A stretch of 34,841 nt of DNA from Candidatus Rokuibacteriota bacterium (GTDB taxonomy: Bacteria > Methylomirabilota > Methylomirabilia > Rokubacteriales > CSP1-6), in contig JACPIQ010000114.1 in assembly GCA_016188005.1 (NCBI GenBank), positions 1-34,841 on the forward strand. Reading direction: 5' to 3'. Both the position numbers and the translations under genes were made by a program. Positions 4,162 to 22,821 of this stretch are shown one piece after another (the first letter of the stretch is position 1; the number at the start of each line of letters is the position of its first letter). The notes under the pieces were generated by a model. It was given only the letters and a program-made list of their open reading frames with translations, was not told the origin of the DNA and searched no databases.

Positions 4162-5145
4162 ATGAAGCGCATCGCGTGTCTCGCTGTCATGTTCGCGCTG
4201 CTGATCCCGCCGGCAACGACCGTGGCCCAGCAGCCCGTGACGCTCGCCTTCTCGACGCTCGACACCGGCAGCGCCTGGTACGTGTACGGCGCGACGATGG
4301 CCGAGATGCTCAGGAAGACGCTGCCCGCCGGCTCGAACATCGACGTGAAGCCGCGGGCCGGCGGCGTCGGCAACCCGCGCCTGGTGGCCAAGAACGAGAC
4401 GCCGCTCGGCTTGAGCTTCACCGTGACCAACCGGTGGGCCTACGAGGGCAAGGAGGCCTACGACACGAAGCTCGACACCCTGCGCGCCCTCGTCGGCGGG
4501 CTGGACACCTACTACCTCGTGGCGGTCGTCCCGAAGAAGGTCGGCATCGCCACCGTGAAGGACATCAAGGACAAGAAGCTCGCGGTCAAGGGCACGACGC
4601 AGCCGGTGGGCTCGCTCGGCGAGTTCGCCGCGCGGCAGCTCATGCGCTCCGCGGGCATGAGCTACGCGGACGTCAAGGCCTGGGGCGGCTCGATGCAGCA
4701 CGCCGGCTACAACGTCATCGTGGACGCCGTCAAGGACGGGCGCGCCGATATGCTCATCGCGGTCGTCACGCCCAAGCACCCGTCGGTGACCGAGATCGCG
4801 AACGCGGTGGACGTGAAGTTCCTCGGCCTGGACGCCGAGACGATGAAAGCACTGGCGCCGCTCGGCTACGTGCCGGCCACGATGCCGGCGAACACGTTCA
4901 AGGGGCAGACGGAGCCCGTGCAGACCGTCGGCTTCCCGACGGTCCTCATCACCAACACGACCCTGCCGGAGCCCGTCGCGTACACGATCACCAAGACGAT
5001 CCTCGAGAACAAGGACGCCCTCGTGCGGGGCCACGCCGGCCTCGCCGAGTTCGACCCGAAGACGGCGTGGCAGCCGGAGAAGGTGGGCCTCCCCCTCCAC
5101 GCGGGCGCGGAGCGCGCGTACCGCGAGAAGGGCTGGATGAAGTAG
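4162..5145 (+). CDS. TAXI family TRAP transporter solute-binding protein
   Basis: A 327-residue exported protein with a signal peptide at residues 1-24 (MKRIACLAVMFALLIPPATTVAQQ). The mature part starts with the TAXI-family pattern: a strand, then DTGSAWYVYGATMAEML, then a GGVGNPRLVA block (about 69-78), which together bind the solute. It would work in the periplasm and deliver substrate, commonly a carboxylate, to the membrane component encoded next. AAAGGAG lies 6 nt before the ATG. Its stop codon TAG is followed directly by the TTG start of the fused permease. The ligand cannot be inferred. Confidence 0.9.
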   Translation: MKRIACLAVMFALLIPPATTVAQQPVTLAFSTLDTGSAWYVYGATMAEMLRKTLPAGSNIDVKPRAGGVGNPRLVAKNETPLGLSFTVTNRWAYEGKEAYDTKLDTLRALVGGLDTYYLVAVVPKKVGIATVKDIKDKKLAVKGTTQPVGSLGEFAARQLMRSAGMSYADVKAWGGSMQHAGYNVIVDAVKDGRADMLIAVVTPKHPSVTEIANAVDVKFLGLDAETMKALAPLGYVPATMPANTFKGQTEPVQTVGFPTVLITNTTLPEPVAYTITKTILENKDALVRGHAGLAEFDPKTAWQPEKVGLPLHAGAERAYREKGWMK

Positions 5146-7020
5146 TTGGGGTCGCCCCGCGTCTGGCTGGCCGCGGCCTGGTCGCTGTTCCAGCTCTACA
5201 CGGCCTACGCGGGGCTCTTCGACCTCCTCATCCAGCTCCCGGTCCACGTCGCCTTCGCGGTCGCGCTCGGCTTCCTGCCCGACCCGATCCCCCAGTCGGC
5301 GACCCAGGCCGCCGCGCTGGGCGGGCGCCGGCCGCGCCGCCGGCTCGACGGGCTCTGCGCCCTGTTGACGGCCGCCTGCGTGGCGTACTACCTCTGGCAC
5401 CACCAGCGGCTCGTCACGCGCATGGCGATGGTCGACGACCTGCCGCCGAGCGACGTCGCCGTCGGCGTCCTGTTCGTGCTCCTGCTGCTCGAGGCCACGC
5501 GGCGCCACATCGGCCTGGCGCTCCCGGCGCTGGCCCTCGCGTTCGTCGCCTACGCCTTCGTGGGGCCGTGGCTGCCCGGCTTCCTCTCTCACGGCGGCGA
5601 GACAGCCCTCGCCCTCGTGGACGCGCAGATGTTCACGACGGGCGGCGTCTTCGGCATCCCCACGCTCGTCTCGGCGACGTTCATCTACCTCTTCGTCCTC
5701 TTCGGCGGCGTGATGTCGCACGGCGGGCTCCTCCGCTTCTTCACCGACGCAGCGCTCGCCGTCGCCGGGCATACGCGGGGTGGCGCGGGCAAGGTCGCGG
5801 TGATCTCGAGCGGGCTCTTCGGCACCGTCAACGGCAGCGCCATCGCCAACGCCGTCACGACGGGCGCGTTCACGATCCCGCTGATGATCCGCGCGGGCTA
5901 CCGGCCGAGCTTCGCCGCGGGCGTCGAGGCGACGGCCTCGATGGGCGGCCAGCTCATCCCGCCTGTCATGGGCGCCGCGGCGTTCATCATGGCCGAGACC
6001 CTCGGCGTGTCGTACGGCACGGTCGCCCTGGCGGCCGCGATCCCCGGCGTCCTCTACTTCGTCTCGGTCGGCGTGATGGTGCACTTCGAGGCCGCGCGCC
6101 AGGGGCTGCCGGTGCTGCCGCGCGCCGAGCTGCCGCGCCTCGGCGCCGTCCTCACGCGCGACCTCCACCTGCTCGCCGGCCCCGCGCTCCTCGTCTGGTT
6201 CCTCGTCGAGGGGCGCTCGCCGCTGTTCGCGGGGTTCTGGGCGCTGGTCACCGCGCTCGCCGCGAGCCAGGTCCGGCGCGACACCCGGATCGGCCTGCGG
6301 CGGGCGGCCGCCGTCCTGGTCCAGGGCGCGCAGAGCGCCTTGCCGGTCGCCCTCGCCTGCGCCACCGTCGGCGTCGTCGTCGGCGTCGTGTCGGCGACGG
6401 GCCTCGGGCTCAAGCTCGCGAGCGGGATCGTCGGGCTGGCGCAGGGGAGCATGCTCCTCACGCTGCTTCTCACGATGGTGGCCGCCCTCGTGCTCGGCAC
6501 GGGGCTGCCGACCTCGGCGACCTACATCATCACGTCCATCATGGCGGCGCCGGCGCTCGTCCAGCTCGGGGTCCCGAAGCTCGTCGCACACATGTTCGTG
6601 TTCTACTTCGGCATCCTCGCCGACCTGACGCCGCCCACGGCGATCTCGACCTACGCGACGTCGTCCATCGCCGGGTCGGACGTCTGGAAGACGCAGTGGA
6701 CGGCCATGGCGCTGGCGCTCTCCGGGTTCATCATCCCGTTCAGCTTCGCGTACGACCCGGCGCTGATGATGCTGGGCGCGAGCGTGCCCCACATGGTCCT
6801 GCGCACGGCGGCGGCGGCGCTCGGGATCGTGATGCTCGGCGCCGGCCTCATCGGCTACCTCCGGGGGCCGACCCGGCTCTGGGAACGCTCGCTGCTCCTC
6901 GCGGGCGCCGTGCTGCTGATCTTCCCGGGAGCGCTCGGTGACGTGGTCGGCGCGGCCTGTCTCCTGGTGGTGTCCGCGTCCCAGCGGACACGGCGGGTCC
7001 GCGTGCCCGTGCGCGGGTGA
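5146..7020 (+). CDS. TRAP transporter fused permease (DctQM-type) for the TAXI system
   Basis: A 624-residue multi-spanning protein, the usual size for the fused small (4-helix) and large (12-helix) TRAP membrane subunits. The N-terminal third matches the small-subunit part. The large part shows the family signatures GGLLRFFTDAAL, GTVNGSAIANAVTTG (about 225-239), the FAAGVEATASMGGQ block, and near the end LGTGLPTSATYII and FGILADLTPPTAI. It would drive secondary, usually sodium-dependent, uptake of the solute captured by the TAXI protein. The TTG start abuts the previous stop codon; no ATG is available nearby, so the start is moderately certain. Confidence 0.9.
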   Translation: MGSPRVWLAAAWSLFQLYTAYAGLFDLLIQLPVHVAFAVALGFLPDPIPQSATQAAALGGRRPRRRLDGLCALLTAACVAYYLWHHQRLVTRMAMVDDLPPSDVAVGVLFVLLLLEATRRHIGLALPALALAFVAYAFVGPWLPGFLSHGGETALALVDAQMFTTGGVFGIPTLVSATFIYLFVLFGGVMSHGGLLRFFTDAALAVAGHTRGGAGKVAVISSGLFGTVNGSAIANAVTTGAFTIPLMIRAGYRPSFAAGVEATASMGGQLIPPVMGAAAFIMAETLGVSYGTVALAAAIPGVLYFVSVGVMVHFEAARQGLPVLPRAELPRLGAVLTRDLHLLAGPALLVWFLVEGRSPLFAGFWALVTALAASQVRRDTRIGLRRAAAVLVQGAQSALPVALACATVGVVVGVVSATGLGLKLASGIVGLAQGSMLLTLLLTMVAALVLGTGLPTSATYIITSIMAAPALVQLGVPKLVAHMFVFYFGILADLTPPTAISTYATSSIAGSDVWKTQWTAMALALSGFIIPFSFAYDPALMMLGASVPHMVLRTAAAALGIVMLGAGLIGYLRGPTRLWERSLLLAGAVLLIFPGALGDVVGAACLLVVSASQRTRRVRVPVRG

Positions 7021-7044
7021 CCGGGACGCCGTCCCCCGAACCCC

Positions 7045-8415
7045 ATGTCAGGAAGGCTGGATCCTGCACGCGCTGAGCCGGTGGTCGCTCCGGTGACTTC
7101 CGATCGGGCCCCGCTGCCTCGCCTGGCGTGGATCGTCTGGGGGATCCCGGCCTTCCTCTTCCTGCTCGCCTTCGTCCACCGCGTGGCCCCGGGCGTCATG
7201 GCGAAGGACCTGATGCAGGCCTTCGACGCCTCGGGCGCCATCGTGGGCCTCCTCTCGGCCACCTACTTCTACGCGTATGCGGGCTTCATGGTGCCCGCGG
7301 GCCTGCTCCTCGACGCCTACGGTGTCCGGCTCGTCATGACGGCAGGCGGCGCCGTCATGGGGCTGGGGGCCATCGCCATGGCCGCGGCGCCCGGCACGGG
7401 CGCGCTCTTCACCGGGCGCTTCCTCGTGGGGCTCGGCGCCACGGTGACCTTCATCGGCGCGCTCAAGATCGCGGCGACCTGGTTCCCGCCCTCGTACTTC
7501 GGCACGCTGTCGGCGGTGACGGCCGCGGTGGGCGTCCTCGGCGCCCTCGCGGGCACGCTCCCGCTGGCAGCGCTCATCGGGCTGGCCGGCTGGCGGGGCT
7601 CGTTCTGGATCATCGGGCTCCTGACGATTGCCGGCGTCGCATGCTGCCTGCTCATCGTGAGAGACCACCCACCCGGGCACGCCGGGGCCGATGCGCCCGT
7701 CCCCGGGCTCCGCGCCGTGATGGGCGGGATGGGCCAGGTCCTCGGCAACCCGCATACCTGGCCGCCCTTCCTCGCCTTCTTCTTCCTCTACTCGGCCACC
7801 GGCAACCTGATGCTCTGGGCCGTGCCCTACCTGAAGGACGTGTACGGGATGTCGACCACGCAGGCGGCGCTCCACTTCTCGGCCACCGCGGTGGCCCTGC
7901 TCGTCTCGGGCCCGCTGACGGGCTACCTGTCCGATCAGGTGCTGAAGCGGCGGAAGCTCCCCTACACCGTGCTCACCGCCTCCTACCTGGCGCTCTGGCT
8001 GCTCATGGTGGTGACGCTGGGCGCGCTCCCACTCTGGGCCGTCCCCGTCCTCTTCTTTGCGCTCGGCATGACCAACGGCGCCTTCGTGCTCACCTGGCCC
8101 CTCGGGCGCGAGGTCAATCCGCCGGCGCTGGCCGGCATCGCCGTCGCCGTGACCAACCTGGGCGGCTTCCTCGGCGCGGCGCTCACCCAGGGCCCGGTGG
8201 GCGCGGTGCTCGATGCGGGCTGGGCCGGTGCCATGGCCGGCGGGGCCCGCGTCTACCCGCTGTCGGCCTATCGCGGCGCCTTCGGCGTCTGCGCCGGCTT
8301 CGTCCTGCTCTCCATGCTCATGACGCTCTTCCTCAAGGAAACGCGAGGCCTCAACATCTATCACCAGCTCAGGGGGCGCTCCGCGCCGGCCGCCGGGTCG
8401 GCGCCGGGACCGTGA
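7045..8415 (+). CDS. MFS transporter
   Basis: A 456-residue protein with about twelve membrane helices after a hydrophilic N-terminus of about 25 residues. The MFS hallmarks are the helix 2-3 region YAYAGFMVPAGLLLDAYGVR, a GRFLVGLGA segment in helix 4 and a D-Q-V-L-K-R-R-K loop (about 294-301) between the two halves. It resembles the oxalate/formate-nitrate type of MFS porters in layout, but the substrate is not evident. It lies 24 nt after the TRAP permease, and its stop overlaps a possible GTG of the thioesterase gene. The ATG lacks an obvious Shine-Dalgarno, and an in-frame GTG at 7081 or 7093 is possible. Confidence 0.85.
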   Translation: MSGRLDPARAEPVVAPVTSDRAPLPRLAWIVWGIPAFLFLLAFVHRVAPGVMAKDLMQAFDASGAIVGLLSATYFYAYAGFMVPAGLLLDAYGVRLVMTAGGAVMGLGAIAMAAAPGTGALFTGRFLVGLGATVTFIGALKIAATWFPPSYFGTLSAVTAAVGVLGALAGTLPLAALIGLAGWRGSFWIIGLLTIAGVACCLLIVRDHPPGHAGADAPVPGLRAVMGGMGQVLGNPHTWPPFLAFFFLYSATGNLMLWAVPYLKDVYGMSTTQAALHFSATAVALLVSGPLTGYLSDQVLKRRKLPYTVLTASYLALWLLMVVTLGALPLWAVPVLFFALGMTNGAFVLTWPLGREVNPPALAGIAVAVTNLGGFLGAALTQGPVGAVLDAGWAGAMAGGARVYPLSAYRGAFGVCAGFVLLSMLMTLFLKETRGLNIYHQLRGRSAPAAGSAPGP

Positions 8416-21112: not shown

Positions 21113-21141
21113 TTGCCTCATCTCACCCGCCATGCTATAAA
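21113..21141 (+). promoter_or_regulatory. Predicted extended -10 promoter of rpmB
   Basis: TTGCCT (21113-21118) and TATAAA (21136-21141) are separated by 17 nt, with an extended TGC (21133-21135) directly before the -10. Transcription would start near 21148, leaving a leader of about 38 nt with AAGGAG 5 nt before the rpmB ATG. This is the best sigma-70 match in the window and suits a ribosomal protein gene. Confidence 0.6.
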
Positions 21142-21160
21142 AGGGGGCCGCATCCGGCAA
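21132..21160 (-). promoter_or_regulatory. Predicted promoter of recG
   Basis: On the minus strand, TTGCCG (21155-21160) and TAGCAT (21132-21137) are separated by 17 nt, each 4 of 6 to the sigma-70 consensus. Transcription would start near 21125, about 17 nt before the recG GTG. The -10 hexamer overlaps the -10 of the opposing rpmB promoter by two bases. Confidence 0.4.
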
Positions 21161-21185
21161 CCGAATCGAACCCCAAGGAGTCAGA

Positions 21186-21377
21186 ATGGCTCAGCGCTGC
21201 GACGTCTGCGGGAAGGGTCCCGCCGTCGGCCACCGCATCAGTCACGCCCACAATGTCACCACCCGTCGCTGGCTCGCCAACCTGGTGTCCATGCGGGCGA
21301 AGATCGGCGGGAGTGTGAAGCGCGTCCGCGTCTGCACACGGTGCCTGAAGGCCGGAAAGGTCACGAAAGTCGTGTAG
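21186..21377 (+). CDS. rpmB: 50S ribosomal protein L28
   Basis: A 63-residue basic ribosomal protein. It starts MAQRCDVCGKGP and continues with GHRISHAHNVTTRRWLANL, the standard L28 core. Two Cys-x2-Cys pairs (CDVC at 5-8 and CTRC at 51-54) indicate the zinc-binding (C+) form. AAGGAG lies 5 nt upstream of the ATG. Being monocistronic and divergent from recG is a common arrangement. A GC-rich hairpin follows the stop codon. Confidence 0.95.
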   Translation: MAQRCDVCGKGPAVGHRISHAHNVTTRRWLANLVSMRAKIGGSVKRVRVCTRCLKAGKVTKVV

Positions 21378-21380
21378 CCG

Positions 21381-21412
21381 CAGGGCGGGGGACATCACCG
21401 CCCCCCGCCCTG
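21381..21412 (+). terminator. GC-rich hairpin after rpmB
   Basis: An 11-bp perfect stem (CAGGGCGGGGG at 21381-21391 paired with 21402-21412) with a 10-nt loop starts 4 nt after the rpmB stop codon. There is no run of T after it, so it may be a Rho-independent terminator of the weak GC-rich kind or an mRNA 3-prime stabiliser. Confidence 0.5.
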
Positions 21413-21447
21413 TGCTTCTGCCGCAGGAAGTATGGAAGCATGAGTGC

Positions 21448-21473
21448 CGGTGGGAGGCCGCCACCCCCCACCG
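21448..21473. other. Hairpin between the rpmB and lysine micro-ORF transcripts
   Basis: CGGTGGG (21448-21454) pairs with CCCACCG (21467-21473), a 7-bp stem with a 12-nt loop. It lies 17 nt beyond the stop of the minus-strand 12-residue lysine ORF and 71 nt beyond the rpmB stop. It could end the minus-strand transcript; no T-tract is present. Confidence 0.3.
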
Positions 21474-21489
21474 CCCAGCAACACAGAGG

Positions 21490-21528
21490 CTACTTCTTCT
21501 TCTTCTTGGTCGCCTTCTTCTTCGCCAT
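21490..21528 (-). CDS. Poly-lysine micro-ORF (12 residues)
   Basis: The ORF reads MAKKKATKKKKK followed by TAG; every lysine codon is AAG. It is preceded by AGGAGGTGA (21536-21544), a near-perfect Shine-Dalgarno, 7 nt from the ATG. Such a strong site in front of so short a frame argues for real translation. The peptide has 8 lysines in 12 residues and resembles the basic tails of histone H1-like or ribosome-binding proteins. It may also be a stalling peptide, as lysine runs slow ribosomes. No gene follows on this strand before recG, so a classic attenuator role is unlikely. Confidence 0.5.
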   Translation of the reverse strand: MAKKKATKKKKK

Positions 21529-21547
21529 GGGTTTGTCACCTCCTTTC

Positions 21548-21595: not shown

Positions 21596-21664
21596 CTATT
21601 TCCGCTTGCCCTTCTTCACCGCCTTCTTCTTGCCGCCCTTCTTGACGGCCTTCTTCTTCTTCAC
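21596..21664 (-). CDS. Lysine-rich micro-ORF (22 residues)
   Basis: The ORF begins at GTG and encodes V/M-KKKKAVKKGGKKK-AVKKGKRK, with 14 lysines in 22 residues and two KKAVKK units, then TAG. GGGGGTGA (21673-21680), one mismatch from GGAGGTGA, lies 8 nt upstream, the same layout as in the following 12-residue ORF. An in-frame GTG at 21676 would add MSRT in front. It begins 44 nt after the stop of the AbiEi-like gene on the same strand and may share its transcript. The composition is like a free DNA- or RNA-binding tail. Whether it is translated is unproven. Confidence 0.5.
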   Translation of the reverse strand: MKKKKAVKKGGKKKAVKKGKRK

Positions 21665-21708: not shown

Positions 21709-22755
21709 CTAGTACCCCATCGCCTCGCGCCGGAGATGCAGGGCCTGCTCCCGTCCCCGGGGCTCGTAGTGATACAGATCGGCGTACAGCTGCGGCAGGC
21801 ACACCACCGGAAGTCCGCTCTTCGTGATTGGCGAGTAGAAAACCCCCTCGTCGTAGGGCCCCAGCAAGTAGACATTGCCCTCACCGACGCCACCCCGGAA
21901 GCCGAGGCTCCGGGCGATGGGCTCGGGGCTCCCCTCCACGTAGCAGTGGATGGCGGGGAAGCGCAAATTGGAGGCGACGAGCCCCGCCCCCGCGTGCAGC
22001 GTGAAGGCGTACCGGCGCCCCTCGGCATGACAGACCCGCCCGAGCTCGCCGATCAGCTTCCGGGTGATCCGCTCCGGAGCGAAGTAGGCCTCGATGTCGT
22101 TCAGCCGGTAGGCGTAGGAGTCGACCCAGCCTTCCAGCAGGTCCCCGGGCTTGACGAGATGGATGCGCTGGTGGTCCCGGCGCTCCACCCACGACACCTC
22201 CTCCAGCCGCTTCACCACGTTGTGGCAGTGGCCCAGGCTCACGTCGGCCGCCTTCGCGAGCTCCTCGAGCCGCCAGACGTGCTGGGAGTCAACCAGGAGC
22301 ACCCGGACGACCCGCGTGGCCCGGGGGGCGAACAGCGAGCGGAGCGGCCGCGTGGAGGGACGAAGGTTGGGCTTTCCCTCCTTCTCGATCAGCACGTTGT
22401 CGAAGGACAGGTGGCAGTTCCCCGAGAGGTCCAGATAGCCGAGCCCGCTCTTCTTCAGGAGCGCGGCGCTCTGGGAGCTGATGTAGGGCGCCACGGCCAC
22501 GGCATAGGCGCCAGGAACCTCCCGTCGAAGTTCGCCGAGGCGGGCAATGGCAGCTCGGATCTGCCTGGGCTGCCCCAGGGGAGTGGTTTCCAGGATCACG
22601 ATGTGTTCCACCGAGCCCAACGTGAATCTGACAAGCAGATCCACCGCTTGAGTGCCAGTCTGGAAGTCTGGGGCCTCCTGCCAGTCGCCGGCACGCGAGA
22701 AGAGATCGCGGAGCCGCTGGGCTGCCAACCTTCGTATGTCGCGGGACTTAGACAT
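21709..22755 (-). CDS. AbiEi-like winged-helix regulator (type IV antitoxin family), no toxin partner seen
   Basis: A 348-residue protein resembling the AbiEi/DUF-type transcriptional antitoxin family. The N-terminal about 130 residues look like a degenerate PD-(D/E)XK-type domain (VDLLVRF, then HIVILETTPLGQPRQIRAAIARL, then VAPYISSQSAALLKKSG and GYLDLSGNCHLSF, about 110-122). Residues about 155-200 form a winged helix (WRLEELAKAADVSLGHCHNVVKRL, then a basic wing). The C-terminal part (HAGAGLVASNLRFPAIHCYVEG) is the family's sensor-like domain. The start ATG lies downstream of the predicted promoter and operator, with AAAGG just ahead; an upstream TTG would place the promoter inside the gene. 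No AbiEii-like nucleotidyltransferase toxin follows; instead come two poly-lysine micro-ORFs. Confidence 0.7.
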   Translation of the reverse strand: MSKSRDIRRLAAQRLRDLFSRAGDWQEAPDFQTGTQAVDLLVRFTLGSVEHIVILETTPLGQPRQIRAAIARLGELRREVPGAYAVAVAPYISSQSAALLKKSGLGYLDLSGNCHLSFDNVLIEKEGKPNLRPSTRPLRSLFAPRATRVVRVLLVDSQHVWRLEELAKAADVSLGHCHNVVKRLEEVSWVERRDHQRIHLVKPGDLLEGWVDSYAYRLNDIEAYFAPERITRKLIGELGRVCHAEGRRYAFTLHAGAGLVASNLRFPAIHCYVEGSPEPIARSLGFRGGVGEGNVYLLGPYDEGVFYSPITKSGLPVVCLPQLYADLYHYEPRGREQALHLRREAMGY

Positions 22756-22763
22756 CCTTTCAC

Positions 22764-22805
22764 TTGTTCCATAGGTTTCAGCGTGTGCTGAAACGATAGG
22801 AACAA
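22764..22805. promoter_or_regulatory. Two-tier 42-bp palindromic operator of the AbiEi-like gene
   Basis: The inner arms GTTTCAGC (22775-22782) and GCTGAAAC (22787-22794) are a perfect 8-bp inverted repeat around GTGT. The outer arms TTGTTCC (22764-22770) and GGAACAA (22799-22805) are a perfect 7-bp inverted repeat centred on the same point. The 4-nt links between tiers do not pair. The element spans the -10 and the start region of the predicted promoter and ends 9 nt before the ATG, where a repressor would block transcription. Autoregulation is known for AbiEi-type antitoxins. Confidence 0.65.
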
Positions 22806-22821
22806 ACGAAACTCCTGTCAA
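22793..22821 (-). promoter_or_regulatory. Promoter of the AbiEi-like gene
   Basis: On the minus strand a perfect TTGACA (22816-22821) and TATCGT (22793-22798, 4 of 6) are separated by 17 nt. The -10 is interleaved with the palindromic operator. The surrounding about 90 nt are much richer in A and T than the rest of the window, including seven As at 22823-22829. Confidence 0.6.

Follow-up and report, generated by a model that had tools for sequence, protein, structure and literature searches.

The regulator gene, its promoter and the palindrome

The window, by which we mean the whole stretch of 34,841 nucleotides analysed here, carries on its minus strand the gene of a predicted regulator whose promoter is interleaved with a palindrome. 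The following features were assigned to this part of the window:

21709..22755, minus strand: regulator gene, 348 amino acids, with a NucS-like N-terminal domain, a central winged helix-turn-helix (wHTH) and an AbiEi_2-like C-terminal domain (Pfam; AlphaFold2 model)
22758..22761, minus strand: predicted right outer half-site GAAA, just 5' of the start codon and 18 bp from the inner GAAA (alignment of upstream regions)
22776..22793, minus strand: inner palindrome TTTCAGC-ACAC-GCTGAAA, the predicted operator (exact sites in relatives; alignment of upstream regions)
22785..22786, minus strand: predicted transcription start, about 7 nt past the -10 element and at the palindrome centre (from promoter geometry)
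22793..22798, minus strand: -10 element TATCGT, whose final T also begins the inner palindrome (promoter search; alignment of upstream regions)
22808..22811, minus strand: predicted left outer half-site TTTC, inside the -35/-10 spacer and 18 bp from the inner TTTC (alignment of upstream regions)
22816..22821, minus strand: -35 element TTGACA (promoter search; alignment of upstream regions)

The window comes from Candidatus Rokubacteria (G000:C114), and its nearest relative is 93% identical in the regulator protein. The C-terminal part of this protein matches AbiEi_2 (PF09952) with E = 0.0012 and 19.6 bits, below the Pfam gathering cut-off of 21, and most homologues of 30-40% identity reach 32-64 bits and thus lie above it. 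Pfam also gave weak MarR/TrmB-type wHTH matches at residues 135-206. In the AlphaFold2 model (pLDDT 90), the N-terminus matches NucS/EndoMS nucleases (E = 1.6e-4) and the middle part MarR/IclR winged helices. A sequence search of the solved structures returned nothing significant, and PADLOC gave weak matches only. Neither the window protein nor the aligned orthologues from Rokubacteriales have the lysine of the catalytic E-x-K of NucS/EndoMS; T, S, G, A, C, R or another residue stands in its place. Taken together, the domain matches suggest an AbiEi-like winged-helix protein with a weak AbiEi_2 C-terminus, in agreement with the earlier note, which had been made from the sequence alone.

The promoter (TTGACA-N17-TATCGT) was the sole match in the 2.4 kb searched, where 0.1 would be expected. 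This confirms the proposal of the earlier note that a palindrome is interleaved with the -10 element and the start point of a TTGACA promoter. The inner palindrome lies 20 bp upstream of the ATG of the regulator (22755, minus strand). An inverted-repeat search extended it to arms of 25 nt each (22758-22782 and 22787-22811), which are 76% complementary and separated by 4 nt; on the minus strand the long palindrome reads TTTCGTTTGTTCCTATCGTTTCAGC-ACAC-GCTGAAACCTATGGAACAAGTGAAA. These arms contain both the 8-bp inner arms (22775-22782 and 22787-22794) and the 7-bp outer arms that the earlier note had described (22764-22770 and 22799-22805). The window has 4 instances of exact 8-bp arms around a 4-nt loop, compared to 1.9 in shuffles, and the combination of 8 exact pairs with at least 19 of 25 positions paired was reached once in 200 dinucleotide shuffles of the window. 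From the window alone, the statistical case for the palindrome against chance is therefore moderate. It was decided by conservation, since the inner 7-bp arms are unchanged in 57 aligned upstream regions.

An element TTCTAG is found about 28 bp upstream of the -35 element (-56 from the palindrome) in 26 of the 57 loci, with 0.6 expected, and is often seen as (C/G)TGTTCTAG in orthologues. The genus of the window has a variant, CTGTTC(C/T)A, located farther upstream.

Conservation of the site and comparison with the recognition helix

We searched 95 genomes of the phylum for the exact inner pattern TTTCAGC-N4-GCTGAAA, an approach which degenerate sites escape. There were 57 matches in 56 genomes, every one directly upstream of a regulator orthologue and none elsewhere in the 95 genomes, and two of the exact sites belong to the single genome that carries the orthologue twice. 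The 35 genomes of families f5-f10, all without the orthologue, have no exact site, and the reversed pattern used as a control gave no match in the 95 genomes. One further orthologue (G083, L052) carries a site with a single arm change, TTTCAGC-AGAT-GTTGAAA. The earlier note had suggested that the regulator may control something else. This is not supported by the 95 genomes, nor by the genome of the window, in which we counted 13 possible further operator sites with up to 3 mismatches, compared to 18 in the control. Homologues lacking the palindrome at this place would speak against the interpretation of the earlier note; they were looked for among the orthologues, but the palindrome proved to be conserved.

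The promoter is conserved together with the site. The -35 element is TTGACA in 56 of the 57 upstream regions and TTGACG in the remaining one, all 57 show the -10 pattern TANNNT, and the two are separated by 17 nt in 17 loci and by 18 nt in 40. Promoter and palindrome are interleaved alike across the 57 regions, and the distance from palindrome to start codon ranges from 17 to 32 nt. The AT-richness which the earlier note had pointed out is genuine, but it is limited to the intergenic strip, and the same AT-rich promoter is kept in all Rokubacteriales orthologues.

Only the inner of the two concentric tiers described in the earlier note withstood this comparison. Among the 56 distinct upstream sequences, TTGTTCC and GGAACAA pair no better than the column compositions predict, and the right one of these arms overlaps a probable Shine-Dalgarno stretch (GGAG/GGAA). 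Conservation is instead seen in TTTC at -18 (56 of 56 distinct sequences) and in GAAA at the mirror position (55 of 56). Therefore, we write the full predicted operator as TTTC-N14-TTTCAGC-N4-GCTGAAA-N14-GAAA. It would span the promoter spacer, the -10 element and the predicted start point and reach through the leader to the start codon.

A palindrome at this place could also act in the RNA, as a stem-loop of the 5' leader that governs translation or stability of the regulator mRNA. Indeed, the 57-nt strand of the palindrome folds as a two-tier hairpin (-25.2 kcal/mol, z = -5.8). But the transcript is predicted to start at the palindrome centre and would hold the right half alone, which makes a hairpin of the whole palindrome unlikely even though the strand folds well. 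Furthermore, in the 56 sequences the linkers and outer arms pair no more than their column composition predicts, while the TTTC and GAAA blocks are conserved, and distant homologues retain the motif, some of them with an extra copy that precedes the promoter, about 70 bp upstream. We therefore give an RNA function scarcely any credence.

These distant homologues, of 30-40% identity, come from Spirochaetota, Desulfobacterota, Calditrichota, Melainabacteria, Verrucomicrobiota and other families of the same phylum. A related 18-bp palindrome was found in 13 of the 22 with sufficient upstream sequence, where 0.002 would be expected per region; the background was 1 match in 166 kb of the homologues' flanking DNA. 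Four more of the 22 have a 19-bp form, TTTTACC-N5-GGTAAAA. Four Verrucomicrobia homologues (L029-L032) have no such palindrome upstream. Of the 13 homologues with the 18-bp form, 12 have TTTC or TTTT at -18; most of the 13 have GAAA 17-18 bp outside on the right, and many a TTGAC -35 element at a similar place. The half-site appears to co-vary with the recognition helix. In a comparison by eye of few lineages of shared ancestry, helices with SLGH or SLGQ go with TTTCAGC or TTTCAAC, SLGL with TTTCACC and SLRT with TTTTACC. A paralogue on another contig of the same genome (G000:C8) has SLGL, and its predicted operator, TTTCACC-ACCC-GGTGAAA, is placed in its promoter in the same way.

If the site served a different regulator and the AbiEi-like gene were just its target, this too would explain why the site is conserved at this place, and the TTCTAG element near -56 hints that other factors may act at this promoter. 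However, the number of sites tracks the gene exactly, with two sites where there are two copies and none where the gene is missing. Between paralogues the site changes along with the recognition helix, and this genome is itself an example, as SLGL of the C8 copy is accompanied by TTTCACC-N4-GGTGAAA. A foreign regulator is thus very unlikely. The comparative evidence argues strongly for an autoregulatory operator: very probably, the palindrome is the site at which the AbiEi-like protein, the product of the gene right behind it, represses its own promoter. The protein would bind to TTTCAGC half-sites that face each other across the transcription start, and the presumably weaker TTTC element, 18 bp outside each inner half-site, would add to recognition. 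With its 25 bp - 4 bp - 25 bp, the arrangement would cover the spacer and the -10 element as well as the start point and the 5' leader, and bound protein would thereby shut out RNA polymerase. Once the protein becomes scarce, the predicted strong TTGACA promoter would fire until its level has recovered. Autoactivation instead of repression is formally conceivable but disfavoured by the overlap of the site with the -10 element and the start point. The comparisons show a conserved architecture that is confined to this one promoter and changes along with the recognition helix among homologues, whereas binding, the sign of the control (repression), how many protein copies bind and the translation of the micro-ORFs described below are inferred. 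The operon controlled in this way would comprise the regulator and one or two lysine-rich micro-ORFs, but no AbiEii toxin.

Gene order, the missing toxin and the lysine micro-ORFs

The earlier note had remarked that no AbiEii toxin gene follows the regulator, and this holds. A tblastn search with 9 AbiEii homologues found no AbiEii (DUF1814) gene in the window or in the orthologous loci. The same search did find AbiEii behind most distant homologues, where the AbiEii/NTP_transf_8 genes overlap or adjoin the AbiEi-like gene on its 3' side, and behind the paralogue in the same genome (G000:C8; paralogue at 5230-6297, AbiEii homologue at 6291-7112). Since AbiEii was looked for and is absent, the window does not contain a complete AbiE toxin-antitoxin system. 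Near the classical AbiEi_2-AbiEii pair on C8 (L095), a second AbiEi-like copy is present at C8:2974-3285, broken by one internal stop.

The gene order secD-secF-spoT-zincin-regulator-recG-coaD is fixed across Rokubacteriales, and the regulator orthologue is a core gene of this order that is nearly always single-copy. An unrooted tree groups the orthologues in a single clade (support 100/100), in which the order's other families branch first. Fixed synteny and tree argue against a recent horizontal acquisition of the regulator. The transfer with which the earlier note had found the AT-rich promoter consistent is therefore not supported, and the retention of this promoter in all orthologues points the same way. 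The simplest reading would be that the toxin was lost and the regulator then retained vertically, with the direction inferred because the tree is unrooted.

Three small features follow the regulator gene:

21596..21664, minus strand: lysine micro-ORF 1, MKKKKAVKKGGKKKAVKKGKRK, 22 codons, GTG start, Shine-Dalgarno sequence GGGGGTGA (conserved 3' of orthologues)
21490..21528, minus strand: lysine micro-ORF 2, MAKKKATKKKKK, 12 codons, Shine-Dalgarno sequence AAAGGAGGTGA (conserved 3' of orthologues)
21449..21472, minus strand: conserved stem-loop GGTGGGGGGTGGCGGCCTCCCACC after micro-ORF 2, without a T-run (conservation; folding -25.2 kcal/mol)

The only criteria for selecting micro-ORFs were a start codon and a Shine-Dalgarno-like motif. 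Two lysine-rich micro-ORFs of 10-23 codons with a strong Shine-Dalgarno sequence were found in 48 of 56 testable loci, and one in the other 8. Among their codons we counted AAG 809 and AAA 75 times, compared to 2 AAC and no AAT; alanine is encoded by GCG (151), GCC (70), GCA (17) and GCT (7), all of these counts including an unrelated third ORF, farther on, in eight loci. This codon use, with alanine codons that differ in their third base, is what coding sequence should show. The stem-loop behind them has 10 pairs, 2 of them with compensatory changes, and is unique in the genome. A comparison with Rfam gave no family, only a chance miRNA match. The stem-loop is G-rich enough for a two-tier quadruplex.

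Past the stem-loop lies rpmB (21186-21377, plus strand). Since this next gene is convergent, the micro-ORFs have nothing directly downstream to lead, and we dismissed the idea that they are the leader of the next gene. An ORF at 21135-21539 (minus strand) was likewise dismissed as a gene, being antisense to rpmB.

Similar micro-ORFs occur elsewhere. A second locus of the same genome (G000:C86:1782-1827; L126 from about 983) has a lysine micro-ORF, MAKKKAAKKKKK, that stands alone and has a TTGACA promoter of its own, a Shine-Dalgarno sequence and then a GC-rich hairpin, and the same is seen in L127-L131. A similar stand-alone micro-ORF is present in G003, a genome without the regulator orthologue. 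Tandem lysine micro-ORFs were found in families f6 and f7 (L152, about 4450-4595, minus strand; L153, about 4375-4490, plus strand). Those of L152 come after a gene pair of an HTH (HVO_A0114-like) and a HEPN protein, and those of L153 after two ORFs of about the size of this pair. A tandem pair of micro-ORFs behind an HTH-HEPN pair lies in G008, and G018 has a similar pair.

The operon could still be a toxin-antitoxin system, with harmful lysine micro-peptides that the AbiEi-like protein counters or limits, the autoregulatory operator being kept. In every orthologous locus that could be tested, micro-ORFs are found where AbiEii would be expected, and another family has a similar pair behind the HTH-HEPN genes. 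On the other side, a micro-ORF stands alone with its own promoter elsewhere in the genome, and one stands alone in a genome without the orthologue. Furthermore, the regulator is a vertically inherited, nearly always single-copy core gene, unlike typical toxin-antitoxin loci. Therefore, we regard such a system as unlikely. It is speculation that the micro-peptides act as a polycation on nucleic acids or ribosomes. A broader scenario is tentative and less likely than not: the ancestor of Rokubacteriales may have remade its AbiE locus, losing AbiEii, so that the autoregulated antitoxin gene would now head a core operon with two lysine peptides of 10-23 residues, as dose-controlled polycations (for ribosomes, RNA or nucleoid) or as a new toxin partner.

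Autoregulation in known AbiEi systems

The locus is a clear case of an antitoxin-family protein that lacks a toxin partner and that an entire order of soil and groundwater bacteria keeps as a fixed core gene, together with its predicted operator. Thanks to the correspondence between helix and half-site across paralogues, DNA recognition in the AbiEi_2 branch, which has received little study, becomes open to direct testing. The lysine micro-ORFs fall below the size range that ordinary gene callers report and did not turn up in the literature searched, which included few subscription journals; nor did we find a publication there that links Rokubacteria with AbiEi or with lysine-rich small proteins.

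AbiEi of the type IV toxin-antitoxin system AbiE of S. agalactiae represses its own promoter via two 23-bp inverted repeats 3 bp apart (PMC3985639, PMC7319586). This member of COG5340 resembles the window protein in its winged helix, its AbiEi-type C-terminal domain and the two long inverted repeats over the promoter, spaced 23-3-23 there and, as judged from the sequence, 25-4-25 here. In contrast, the window gene has no AbiEii behind it, is a fixed core chromosomal gene, has a different operator sequence and encodes an extra NucS-like N-terminal domain of about 135 residues. Rv2827c of M. tuberculosis binds four repeats overlapping its own promoter (PMC7319586). Also a member of COG5340, it is similar in that several repeats overlap its own promoter and one pair straddles the predicted sigma-factor site. 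It differs in being paired with the DUF1814 toxin gene rv2826c, in its four 23-bp repeats and in the N-terminal position of the wHTH, which lies in the middle of the window protein.

Also close are the AbiEi_2 proteins paired with AbiEii/NTP_transf_8 (Spirochaetota, Desulfobacterota, Calditrichota, families of NC10, and G000:C8), which are homologous over most of their length at 30-40% identity. They share domain order and operator architecture with the window, most with TTTC/GAAA 17-18 bp outside. Apart from the overlapping or adjoining toxin gene and, in several loci, the second palindrome about 70 bp upstream, they differ in the PD-(D/E)XK site (residues 36-64 of the window protein), the E-x-K of which many of them keep and the Rokubacteriales orthologues do not. 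Autoregulation of AbiEi through inverted repeats is thus already published, and the operator proposed here would follow the same principle. What is new is the toxin-less, order-wide core copy, the family-wide correspondence between half-site and helix, and the lysine micro-ORFs.
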